A stretch of 64,000 bases of DNA, taken from NCBI GenBank assembly GCA_945952585.1, contig CAMFII010000001.1:682001-746000 (forward strand). The letters are read 5' to 3'. The position numbers and the translations under genes are program-made. Of the stretch, positions 33,454 through 35,957 are shown piece after piece; position 1 is the first letter of the stretch; every line of letters begins with the position of its first letter. The notes under the pieces are model-generated. The model saw only the letters and a program-made list of their open reading frames with translations, was not told the DNA's origin and ran no database searches. This DNA comes from an uncultured Rhodobacter sp. GTDB taxonomy: Bacteria > Pseudomonadota > Alphaproteobacteria > Rhodobacterales > Rhodobacteraceae.

Positions 33454-34482
33454 TCAATTGCGGCGGATCGTGTCGCCCGGTTCCAGCGTCGGGGTCAGCT
33501 CGACGATCTCGCCGCCGATGATCCCGTCGCGGTGCTTGCCTGCCACGATCTCGGCCGCGATGCGCCCGATCTCGTATCGGCAGGCGTCCATCGTCGCAAG
33601 GCGCCGCGGCAGGCCATCCAGCAATTCGACGCCGTTAAAGCCGGCGAGGCCCAGCCGGTTCGGAATGTCTATCCCCGTTTCCAGGCAGTAAAGCAGGCCG
33701 CCGGCGCCGATCATGTCGTTTGAATAATACAAGAAATCGAGGTCCGGCGTTCGCGCAAGGATCGCCGCCGTCATCTCGCGCCCCTTGAGCAGGGCCGAAC
33801 CGCCCGAATAGAACTCGCGGTCCGCCAAGGTCAAGCCCGCCTTGGCCAGCCCCTCTTCGAACCCGGCAAGCCGCTTTCGCGCCCTGTGGTCATGGGGCAT
33901 CATCGTGCCCAGAAAGCCGATCCGGCGATAGCCGGCGGCGACGATCGCCTCGGCCATCTCGAGCCCGGCGCGACGGTGGGAAATCCCGACGGCGCTGTCG
34001 ACCGGGGTTCCGTCAATGTCCATCACCTCGACGATCGGGATGCCCGCATTTGCCAGCATTGCCTGCGACGCGTCGCTATGCTCGAGCCCCGCGATAATCA
34101 CCCCTGAGGGCCGCCAGGACAGCATCTCGTAAAGCACGGCCTCCTCGCGCTCGGGAGAATAGTTCGTAACGCCAACGACAGGCTGAAGCCCAGTATCATC
34201 CAGCGTTTCAGAGATTCCGGTCAGTACCTCTGGGAAAACCATGTTCGACAGCGAGGGGATGATGACCCCGACCAGGTTCACCCTTTGGCTGGCCAGTGCA
34301 CCGGCAATCTTGTTCGGTACATAGCCAAGCCTGCGCGCTGCATCCAGGACCCGCTCACGCGTGGTATCCGAAACATCCCCCCGGCTTCGCAGCACCCGGC
34401 TTACAGTCATTTCGCTGACACCAGAGGCTTCAGAGACGTCGCGAAGGGTCAGCGTGCGCTTCGGATCGGGAATGCGAGCCAC
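33454..34482 (-). CDS. LacI-family repressor, GntR (gluconate)-like
   Basis: The 342-residue repressor has a LacI helix-turn-helix (LRDVSEASGVSEMTVSRVLRSRGDVS) and hinge (LGYVPNKIAGALASQ), and a periplasmic-binding-type effector domain starting NLVGVIIPSLSNMVFPEVLTGI. The sequence around MTVSR and YVPN, and the LSNMVFPEVL segment, resemble the gluconate repressor of enterobacteria. The start is a GTG at 34482 after AGGAGA. A palindromic site of the type used by this family lies about 85 bases upstream and probably controls a divergent transcript. No gluconate genes are nearby, so the effector is unknown. Confidence 0.86.
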   Translation of the reverse strand: MARIPDPKRTLTLRDVSEASGVSEMTVSRVLRSRGDVSDTTRERVLDAARRLGYVPNKIAGALASQRVNLVGVIIPSLSNMVFPEVLTGISETLDDTGLQPVVGVTNYSPEREEAVLYEMLSWRPSGVIIAGLEHSDASQAMLANAGIPIVEVMDIDGTPVDSAVGISHRRAGLEMAEAIVAAGYRRIGFLGTMMPHDHRARKRLAGFEEGLAKAGLTLADREFYSGGSALLKGREMTAAILARTPDLDFLYYSNDMIGAGGLLYCLETGIDIPNRLGLAGFNGVELLDGLPRRLATMDACRYEIGRIAAEIVAGKHRDGIIGGEIVELTPTLEPGDTIRRN

Positions 34483-34540
34483 TTGGGTAGGTTCTCCTCA
34501 AACCTGCGGACTTATCCCTTGTTAGCGCCAAACTTCCCGC

Positions 34541-34569
34541 TTGTCCAAGCCGTCGGAAATCGCTATGTT
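34541..34569 (+). promoter_or_regulatory. Sigma-70 promoter of a divergent small transcript
   Basis: TTGTCC (34541-34546) and TATGTT (34564-34569) are spaced by exactly 17 bp. The -10 is overlapped by a perfect LacI-type palindrome. No gene start lies downstream before the hairpin at 34651. Confidence 0.6.
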
Positions 34570-34579
34570 ACCGCTAACA
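34566..34579. promoter_or_regulatory. LacI/GntR-type operator
   Basis: TGTTACCGCTAACA has perfect 5-bp half-sites (TGTTA and TAACA) around CCGC. It resembles the enterobacterial GntR operator as I remember it. It overlaps the -10 and start region of the small transcript. A second TGTTA half-site at 34520-34524, 46 bp away, may take part in looping or autoregulation. Confidence 0.65.
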
Positions 34580-34688
34580 ACTCCGGCGAATCCGGGGCTG
34601 GCGATATCCTGCGCGTCCTGCAAGCTCTCAACTCTGACGCAAGGGACCTGAAGGGGGAGTGGTGGGCCAAAAGCACTCCCCCTTTCCA
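34576..34688 (+). ncRNA. Candidate repressor-controlled small RNA
   Basis: A transcript of about 113 nt would start just after the TATGTT -10 and end at the strong hairpin at 34651-34684. It has no ATG or clear coding frame. It contains a small CCGG-CGAAT-CCGG hairpin and two CCUG-rich unpaired stretches (ATCCTG and GTCCTG) that could pair with ribosome sites. The arrangement, a regulator gene divergent from an RNA gene, is like sgrR-sgrS or gcvA-gcvB. No expression evidence is available here. Confidence 0.5.
34651..34684 (+). terminator. Strong hairpin ending the small RNA
   Basis: An 11-bp perfect stem, AAGGGGGAGTG and CACTCCCCCTT with a 12-base loop, is followed by a short T run. It stands alone between the LacI gene promoter region and tRNA-Arg, so it needs an upstream transcript to terminate. 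Confidence 0.7.
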
Positions 34689-34756
34689 TTTCCTGATCCC
34701 ACGCCAAGAGCGGTTGCGCTGAATCGCTTTTGCCCGCATTTAGGGCGCGGGTGAAC

Positions 34757-34832
34757 GGCCCCGTAGCTCAGGGGATAGAGCGACCGCCTCCTAAGCGGTA
34801 GGTCACAGGTTCGAATCCTGTCGGGGCCGCCA
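34757..34832 (+). tRNA. tRNA-Arg (CCU)
   Basis: A full cloverleaf: acceptor GGCCCCG and CGGGGCC, D arm AGCTCAGGGGATAGAGC, anticodon stem ACCGC/GCGGT with anticodon CCT, T arm ACAGGTTCGAATCCTGT, discriminator G and encoded CCA. tRNA-Arg genes are frequent integration sites, and decayed DNA starts right after it. Confidence 0.97.
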
Positions 34833-34859: not shown

Positions 34860-35100
34860 CTATTCAATGGGTTGGAGAGCGGGTGGCTCGGGCTTCCCCA
34901 CATGCTTTCCCGACACATAGGTGTATCCGGTGTCTAGCCCGGCGCTTGGGAGGTCTGAGTCGAGAATGATGGTCTTTGGATGGCTCCTGCCCAAAGGTCA
35001 GGCCAAGAGCTGGTCCGGCCCATGCTCCCCCGGCTTGTAGTCACCAAAGAGCGGCACAACCTTGACTGCCATGTGCACATGCAAAAGGTAAAGGGCTTTG
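34860..35100 (-). pseudogene. Fragment of an unknown gene
   Basis: Reading the minus strand with one frameshift gives a plausible protein end: a segment with VVPLFGDYKPGEHGPDQLLA, then TIILDSDLPSAGLDTGYTYV and a stop at 34860. No start or complete frame is present. I do not recognise the family. It may be residue from an integrated element next to tRNA-Arg. Confidence 0.3.
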
Positions 35101-35163
35101 CTTTCGTGGCAGCAGGACCGGAAGGTCGAATGGCAACATGGCGCCCGGCAATCCCATGTGAGA

Positions 35164-35375
35164 CACGACTTGATCGAGAGCTTCAGTGGCCGTCTGCGGG
35201 ATGAGTGCCTCAACGAGCCCCTGTCCTCCAGCCTACGCCAGGCCCGTCACCAGATCGCGGCATGACGTGACGACCTGAACCATCACCGCCCGTATAGGAG
35301 CCTCAGGGGCTCACGCCGCAGGAGTTCTTCATGCGGTCAATAAAGGGCCAAACCCTGAACAGAACCAACTTCTGA
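35164..35375 (+). pseudogene. IS3-family transposase, 3' remnant
   Basis: Three frame segments together give the end of an IS3-type OrfB: LIESFSGRLRDECLNEPL, then RDDLNHHRPYRSLRG, then GLTPQEFFMRSI before a stop at 35373-35375. These match the region around the third catalytic acidic residue and the conserved end of such transposases. The frames are broken by indels and nothing of the 5' half remains. No inverted repeats were recognised. Confidence 0.7.
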
Positions 35376-35957
35376 ACGAGGATAAACTGACGAGCAGGTC
35401 ATGCCAAAGCCAAGAACCTTGTCACGAATCAACCTTGATCCATGCTGCTGCCGCCCTTGGCGTGGGTTTTGGCGGCAGGACTGGCAAATAGTGTCGTGTC
35501 GGGACGCTTTGAAATGCGATCCAGAACTGCTGTGGCGACAGCTTAGTGTTCCGCCGCGATGCTCCCTCGATTGTCACTTTGTGGCGGATCCCTTGAGATA
35601 CCTCAAAGCATGGTTGGCACCTCTGCTTCTGGCAAACCCCGTCGTCCGCTCGGCAACGCTCGGCATCGGGAAAACACACCTTTGCGCCAGATGCACAACC
35701 GCGATCACATTCACCTAGCAGTCGAGTCTCCCGATTTGCGAGTGTCAGAGCGTAAGTGTTCCTTCCGGAGGAACCCCGAAAAGATGGCCCTCATAAGCGC
35801 CAGTTTCTAAATAGAAATCTCACCATTTGCTTGGACCGCGCGCGGCAGTCGTCGCTCCACGTCTTGCCGAGTTTACACTTGTCCTCTCCGTTAATTACGC
35901 ATCTCGGTCCGATCGATGACGTAGCGTCAAGGCGACCAAGCGGATTCGAAGGTCGCC
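35376..35957. other. Intergenic stretch without recognisable genes
   Basis: About 580 bases with mixed composition and lower GC than the surrounding genes. Short open frames exist on both strands (for example 35401-35718 plus) but have unusual amino-acid composition, no ribosome site and no recognisable motif. It is best read as decayed DNA of the post-tRNA-Arg region. Confidence 0.5.

Follow-up and report, generated by a model that had tools for sequence, protein, structure and literature searches.

A small RNA (sRNA), probably controlled by CceR and released on sugar, is likely to bind two sites of the pckA mRNA and so to stop the translation of phosphoenolpyruvate (PEP) carboxykinase. Judging from comparisons among relatives, it is also likely that this new sRNA family is the post-transcriptional arm of the CceR switch, in which the loop of the sRNA would address a dedicated hairpin in the pckA leader, with a stem of free sequence and a fixed UUGGCCC loop, and a linear seed would close the ribosome-binding site (RBS), the elements of sRNA and leader being gained and lost together. 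The accessible portions of the literature on these alphaproteobacteria attribute the change between sugar synthesis and sugar breakdown to a transcription factor. If the proposal is true, a CceR-controlled RNA adds a fast layer against futile cycling, with PEP carboxykinase shut off, and the system provides a naturally replicated test case for target recognition at two points, a kissing loop and a ribosome site.

The window, that is, the whole stretch of 64,000 nucleotides analysed here, holds the predicted sRNA gene between a divergent LacI-family regulator gene and a tRNA-Arg gene (Table 1). All the elements that a first-pass annotation of this DNA had described are in place: the TTGTCC and TATGTT boxes with their 17-nt spacer, the perfect palindrome over the −10 box, a stretch free of ATG, the hairpin, whose stem covaries, and a neighbour of the LacI type, as borne out by its Pfam domains. 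The U-tract that follows the hairpin is weak (CCCCCTTTCCATTTCC). The palindrome CTTGTCCAAG (window 34540-34549) is shared by the sRNA and the regulator, whose −35 boxes overlap there, one on each strand, and the two promoters may be in competition for polymerase. An imperfect operator on the regulator side sits over the presumed −10 of the regulator. A small protein as the product is ruled out by the lack of an ATG in the RNA and by the varying RNA lengths, from 70 to 137 nt across 25 relatives.

Table 1. Features of the sRNA locus, with positions in the window (strand given as ".", where the feature has none).
Feature	Position	Strand	Basis or remark
Regulator gene, LacI-family, 342 aa, probable CceR/GapR ortholog	33454..34482	-	Pfam LacI + Peripla_BP
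Presumed −10 (CTAACA) of regulator promoter	34520..34525	-	Read from sequence
Imperfect operator, regulator side, TGTTAGCGCCAAAC, 3 mismatches	34520..34533	.	Presumed autoregulation
sRNA promoter −35 box TTGTCC	34541..34546	+	Sequence and conservation
Presumed −35 (TTGGAC) of regulator promoter	34543-34548	-	Read from sequence
sRNA promoter −10 box TATGTT	34564..34569	+	Spacer to −35 of 17 nt
Perfect palindromic operator TGTTACCGCTAACA covering sRNA −10	34566..34579	.	Sequence and conservation
Predicted small RNA (no ATG)	34576..34690	+	Start placed from −10, end from hairpin; conservation, no ATG, covarying hairpin
Linear seed CUGCAAGCUCUC, complement of pckA RBS GAGAGCUUGCAG	34618..34629	+	
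Terminator-like hairpin with covarying stem	34652..34683	+	
GGGCCAA within conserved loop UGGGCCAA	34664..34670	+	Complement UUGGCCC is the apical loop of the pckA leader hairpin in relatives
tRNA-Arg(CCT), downstream neighbour outside the sRNA unit	34757..34832	+	

The sequence alone proves little. A palindrome with at most two mismatches occurs once in the window and is present in 32 of 100 shuffles, the folding energy of the sRNA region is unremarkable (z −1.56; 13 of 200 shuffles are equally good), and the sRNA site is absent from the results of a mechanical scan for promoters and terminators; the palindrome over the −10 box is the sole perfect one in the genome. Conservation settles the matter: what was observed is genuine, and chance does not account for it.

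Recurrence in relatives was one of the two checks on which the first-pass annotation had staked its idea, and the idea survived it, since promoter, operator and hairpin recur beside the same LacI-type gene. A blastn search with the intergenic region matched 6 of 61 genomes, the genome of origin (G000) among them, and in the five other loci the same regulator adjoins the site. The hairpin pattern was matched in 47 of 394 Rhodobacteraceae genomes; 30 of these loci were fetched, of which 22 (the own locus included) adjoin the regulator, seven are chance matches and one (L023) is cut off by the end of its contig. A scan of a collection of species genomes for the regulator gave at least 584 relatives, and the best 80 of these, in which the regulator is 76-86% identical, were kept for locus analysis; they include Rhodobacter capsulatus SP108 (a 78% identical copy), Gemmobacter, Thioclava and Tabrizicola. 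Among these best 80 of at least 584, the exact GGTGGGCCA lies upstream of the regulator in 42 loci, and the hairpin, with loop variants allowed, is found in 52. In all, 77 hairpin loci were available, 25 from the first, unnamed set and 52 from the set of named genomes, with a few genomes common to both. A covariance model was built from 16 equal-length hairpins of these loci, MAFFT alignments having placed the loop gaps at the end; it matched at least 48 of the 394 family genomes and, across the class, at least one of 289 genomes, G000 being that one, and these counts are lower bounds because the scans used strict filters and scored 18-24 candidates per genome. The family scan led to 29 fetched loci; the regulator is in the flank in all 15 of those examined, in one case just 46% identical.

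Across the alignment of the 16 hairpins, pairing is kept in 95.8% of cells, and two-sided changes are seen at 9 of the 11 stem pairs, a covariation reached by 0 of 500 shuffles and confined to at most two pairs in slid controls, so that a chance hairpin is ruled out. The loop word UGGGCCAA is identical in the 39 hairpins compared, a constancy that is partly by construction, as the hairpins were first found by the loop core. Among the 29 matches of the structure model, one (L330) is unreadable on a short contig, and 27 of the 28 readable ones have UGGGCCAA, the exception (L351) having CGGGCCAA, with C for the first U. The loop word is also altered in L100 and in the decayed copies L088 and L123. 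Upstream, TTGTCC stands 24-28 nt before the operator in 55 of the 77 hairpin loci, at 25 nt in 43 and at 26 nt in 12. The unit presents several sequence marks of a trans-acting base-pairing sRNA: a promoter and a terminator of its own, a conserved non-coding body and a conserved complementarity to a target mRNA.

Two traces of decay were encountered among the relatives. L123 has kept promoter and operator, with loop and stem broken, and both pckA sites described below are absent from its genome; L088, in genome G429, has kept part of the seed, with a changed loop, and its genome has the pckA ribosome site alone.

The likely target, as suggested by base complementarity, is pckA, which encodes PEP carboxykinase. 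A single-stranded CGUCCUGCAAGCUCUC is conserved in many members of the sRNA family, and the seed core GCAAGCT is present in 51 of the 77 hairpin loci. In the own genome, the linear seed is perfectly complementary to the pckA RBS over 12 contiguous bp, ending 2 nt before the AUG. CCUG stretches had been proposed earlier as seeds, and one of them, CCUGCAAGCUCUC, is the likely seed, with the apical loop as a second and more conserved contact. The complement of the seed (14 nt, at most two mismatches) is not enriched genome-wide, with 36 places including the sRNA itself against 36 in the reversed control; among the three non-self places with one mismatch, the pckA RBS alone is at a start site. In 30 hairpin-bearing relatives, the pckA site often reads GGGAGCUUGCA before the AUG, and GGAGCTTGC before an ATG was met at 42 places in 8 genomes.

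The co-occurrence of sRNA and pckA elements was counted in 61 hand-picked genomes, namely G000, 30 hairpin genomes from the blastn and pattern searches, and the genomes of 21 of the 28 named loci without and 9 of the 52 with the hairpin; G427, in which pckA is split in two matches, was dropped before the counts, leaving 60. The RBS site is present versus absent in 19 vs 4 genomes with the seed and in 11 vs 26 without it (Fisher 7e-5), and within the hairpin genomes in 19 vs 4 against 6 vs 11 (p 0.003). Corrected for the tree, the association gives Pagel 0.016 and disjoint pairs of 5:1 with 6 ties. For the Pagel test we used a script written for this analysis and a tree built solely from PckA, and six pairings of sRNA and leader features were tree-tested, two of them against mere hairpin presence. 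At least one pckA site is found in 22 of the 23 seed-bearing genomes, and both in 15; three of the 22 (G019, G411 and G233) have the leader loop without the RBS match, and the remaining genome (G451) has the seed and neither site. Of the 17 seed-less genomes among the 40 with the hairpin, 10 have neither pckA site, as is the case in R. capsulatus and Thioclava. Six of the 20 hairpin-less genomes carry one pckA site or both, and one of the six is G429 with its decayed copy.

The sRNA loop gained meaning from the reading of the pckA leaders. In relatives, these carry a small hairpin about 45-75 nt before the AUG with the apical loop UUGGCCC, the exact complement of the sRNA loop GGGCCAA. UUGGCCC is the commonest 7-mer of pckA leaders in hairpin genomes, being found in 16 of 40 vs 1 of 20 without the hairpin, and the best of its other 209 anagrams reaches 4 of the 40 leaders. 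In the leader stem, as counted in the 15 equal-length hairpins of 22 leader hairpins, 93.3% of cells pair and 43 cells have two-sided changes; 0 of 500 shuffles reach either value, with averages of 55.7% and 12.9 cells, whereas for one of the five leader measures, the number of pairs that show any two-sided change (7 of 8), 166 of the 500 shuffles do as well. The leader hairpin of the own genome is GGCACC-UUCUGGCCCAG-GGUGCC, and its loop match is just 6 nt (UGGCCC). With the leader loop taken as UGGCCC or UUGGUCC, the leader window and the latter G-U variant having been fixed after seeing the data, the loop is present versus absent in 18 vs 5 genomes with the seed against 6 vs 31 without it (Fisher 2.3e-6); tree correction gives Pagel 2.2e-4 and disjoint pairs of 7:0 with 5 ties. 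Whether a genome has the hairpin at all predicts the pckA sites less well, with Pagel 0.009 and pairs of 2:0 for the leader loop and Pagel 0.051 and pairs of 5:2 for the RBS site. The contacts are collinear, with the seed 5' and the loop 3' in the sRNA and the loop 5' and the ribosome site 3' in the mRNA.

Interaction energies do not separate own from swapped pairs of sRNA and leader overall (−24.9 vs −24.4 kcal/mol, permutation p 0.16); seed genomes tested against foreign sRNAs give p 0.0098, and the 17 seed-less genomes go the other way. Screening for the exact loop complement TTGGCCCAC returned 13 non-sRNA sites in G000, 10 in G003 and 7 in G081, from which no target emerged; among the matches listed, two of the 13 sites in G000 match a G003 site by blastn, and both are antisense to genes. 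TTGGCCCAC is strongly under-represented in the G000, G003 and G081 genomes relative to the reversed control (14 vs 73 in G000), which perhaps reflects a general avoidance of GGCC words. A screen of six genomes for TTGGCCCA followed by an ATG gave 227 places, and the 18 stretches read contained just a weak lead at kynA. At L387 (G000:C2 near 526,017), TTTTGGCCCA lies about 28 nt upstream of an ATG, with a near-identical stretch in G003; the gene that follows, which we take to be tryptophan-dioxygenase-like, is a possible further target of the sRNA loop. Near-matches of the seed complement also stand at two other ribosome sites of G000, L208 and L199, which belong to genes that we take to be one of the acetoacetate CoA-transferase type and one of the SDR type.

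These RBS-proximal near-matches at the CoA-transferase and SDR genes and the upstream loop complement at kynA, together with sRNAs of the R. capsulatus and Thioclava type that keep hairpin and loop and miss the seed and both pckA sites, would fit a different account, in which the sRNA and its control by CceR are real and pckA is not the main target, or is so in some clades alone, the loop and seed serving other mRNAs. This account is unlikely, given that two separate elements of the sRNA each have a counterpart in the same leader, that their order is collinear and their co-occurrence survives tree correction, and that no gene besides pckA recurred among the 30 fetched of the 42 GGAGCTTGC places. 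In the Thioclava/Sinirhodobacter group (L108, L121 and L084, also L349), a conserved GTGTAGACTCCGATCGC replaces the pckA seed just upstream of the hairpin and is probably a different seed.

The regulator is probably the CceR/GapR ortholog, an identification that follows from the fit of its operator and regulon to those published. GntR and IdnR are the NCBIfam models that it matches best, none of them reaching the cut-off, and its paralogs in the own genome are at most 36% identical. In the accessible text of the sources, GapR/CceR (RSP_1663) is a Rhodobacteraceae regulator predicted to control zwf-pgl-pgi, edd-eda, gapA and pckA (PMC4052901; PMC4344238), its motif is GTT-N6-8-AAC (PMC4344238), its effector is 6-phosphogluconate (PMC4419725, citing Imam 2015), and deletion of cceR in Paracoccus denitrificans lowers PckA protein and raises the Entner-Doudoroff enzymes (PMC11323563). 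The own genome holds seven other operators with one mismatch besides the sRNA site, four of which stand at central carbon genes, upstream of edd, zwf and gap and at the gnd start, gene names that were assigned by reading translations; of the remainder, one is inside a gene and two are before other genes. Operators with at most two mismatches are not enriched genome-wide, at 28 sites vs 36 in the reversed control. Among the G000 operators with one or two mismatches are those at the start of a 6-phosphogluconate dehydrogenase-like gene (L040), before a short gene (L044) and before a phosphatase-like gene (L051), and these genes may be new members of the regulon. The sugar signal proposed by the first-pass annotation is made likely by the predicted regulon (edd, zwf, gap and gnd), with the published effector being 6-phosphogluconate and not gluconate; what it had called an RNA switch stands as a regulator-controlled small RNA, in which control would lie with the transcription factor and not with sugar sensing by the RNA itself.

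The pckA genes themselves carry related sites. In 19 of the 60 genomes, the published GTT-N6-8-AAC motif is no more than 220 nt away from pckA; in G000 it was not found in that range. A CceR-like site stands further upstream than the leader hairpin; in the 12 cases listed it is at −153 to −200 relative to pckA, and in most of them it reads TGRTTGCGCTAAC. The best CceR-like match in the pckA leader has at most three mismatches in 59 of 60 genomes vs 1 of 74 control windows. Such sites fit CceR as a direct activator of pckA.

At the sRNA locus, the operator with at most one mismatch is found in 50 of the 52 named hairpin loci and in 22 of the 25 loci of the first set, and in 1 of the 28 named regulator loci without the hairpin. 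When windows of equal size after TTGTCC are compared, such an operator is present in 34 of 37 loci with the hairpin vs 1 of 9 without it, and the sole hairpin-less locus with a near-perfect operator is the decaying copy L123. Of 74 control windows of the same length further downstream, one has three mismatches and the rest 4-7. The site on the regulator side has 1-4 mismatches in 35 of the 37 named hairpin loci with TTGTCC. As the near-perfect operator tracks the hairpin, the palindrome belongs to the sRNA, and the regulator side keeps a poorer site. It is therefore very improbable that the palindrome is the operator of the regulator alone, with the hairpin as a terminator or remnant that protects the tRNA gene and no regulatory RNA at all. 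Autoregulation is indeed common among LacI regulators (72% in the accessible text of PMC4052901), and 63 of the 77 loci have a tRNA-Arg on the same strand, at most 320 nt from the loop; yet the near-perfect operator follows the hairpin and not the regulator, a mere terminator needs no fixed loop, the seed core is kept in 51 of the 77 loci, and the sRNA unit persists in the 14 loci without a same-strand tRNA-Arg within 320 nt, of which one has it reversed and some may be contig ends. The same 63 loci would also suit an RNA that acts as leader or attenuator, either for the downstream tRNA-Arg(CCT) or for a short ORF, an account that is likewise very improbable in view of the same 14 loci, the ATG-free RNA and its variable length.

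Under the preferred reading of a CceR-controlled sRNA that acts on pckA, CceR in the absence of sugar would occupy the palindrome over the −10 box and keep the sRNA off, while activating pckA and repressing the Entner-Doudoroff genes. Sugar would raise 6-phosphogluconate, upon which CceR would leave the DNA and the sRNA would be transcribed. Its terminator-hairpin loop GGGCCAA would kiss the leader-hairpin loop UUGGCCC of the pckA mRNA, and single-stranded CUGCAAGCUC would pair with GAGCUUGCAG over the Shine-Dalgarno sequence and as far as the start codon. PEP carboxykinase would no longer be translated, and gluconeogenesis would quickly be off while sugar is burned, an arrangement that would constitute a coherent feed-forward loop.

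A regulator gene divergent from the sRNA that it controls is known from SgrR-SgrS and GcvA-GcvB. SgrR and GcvA belong to other regulator families, serve other targets and activate their sRNAs, whereas the regulator here would repress its sRNA. The contact of OxyS with fhlA in Escherichia coli is bipartite, combining loop-loop pairing with cover of the RBS. OxyS-fhlA is the nearest mechanistic parallel alongside RNAIII-coa and RNAIII-rot of Staphylococcus aureus, which likewise have two contacts per mRNA, loop-loop pairing and RBS cover (PMC8383071, in its accessible part); all are likened by mechanism alone, their targets and signals being others, and here the kissing loop is that of the terminator hairpin itself. 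The nearest functional parallel, likened by published function alone, is scr5239 of Streptomyces coelicolor, an sRNA dependent on a carbon regulator (DasR) that represses PEP carboxykinase post-transcriptionally by pairing at the translation start (PMC7025569). It differs in its unrelated phylum and regulator and in its single 8-nt site, located in a stem, and the accessible text describes no kissing with a leader hairpin (PMC7025569); the sRNA-pckA pairing would parallel the control of PEP carboxykinase in Streptomyces from an unrelated start. With the CceR/GapR regulon of Rhodobacteraceae, the system shares a LacI regulator, GTT-N6-AAC sites and control of zwf, edd, gap and pckA (PMC4052901; PMC4344238; PMC4419725; PMC11323563). 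The accessible portions of these papers tie no small RNA to the regulator, and the sRNA would be a new post-transcriptional member.

The sRNA family is new, and the kind of mechanism is already known. No Rfam 15 family matched the sRNA at gathering score, only two tRNAs in the window doing so, and the two weak matches over the sRNA region come from microRNA models and score far short of the respective cut-offs. The open-access literature, to which the search was mostly confined, yielded among the top entries listed no small RNA tied to CceR or pckA in Rhodobacteraceae. Published sRNA tables, such as that of Paracoccus with its 167 candidates (PMC5107571, as far as accessible), could hold this RNA unnamed.

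Just past the tRNA-Arg(CCT) gene, at window 35100-35400, broken fragments of an IS3-like transposase were recognised by eye. Insertions may favour this tRNA gene as a hot spot, a possible reason for losses of the sRNA.
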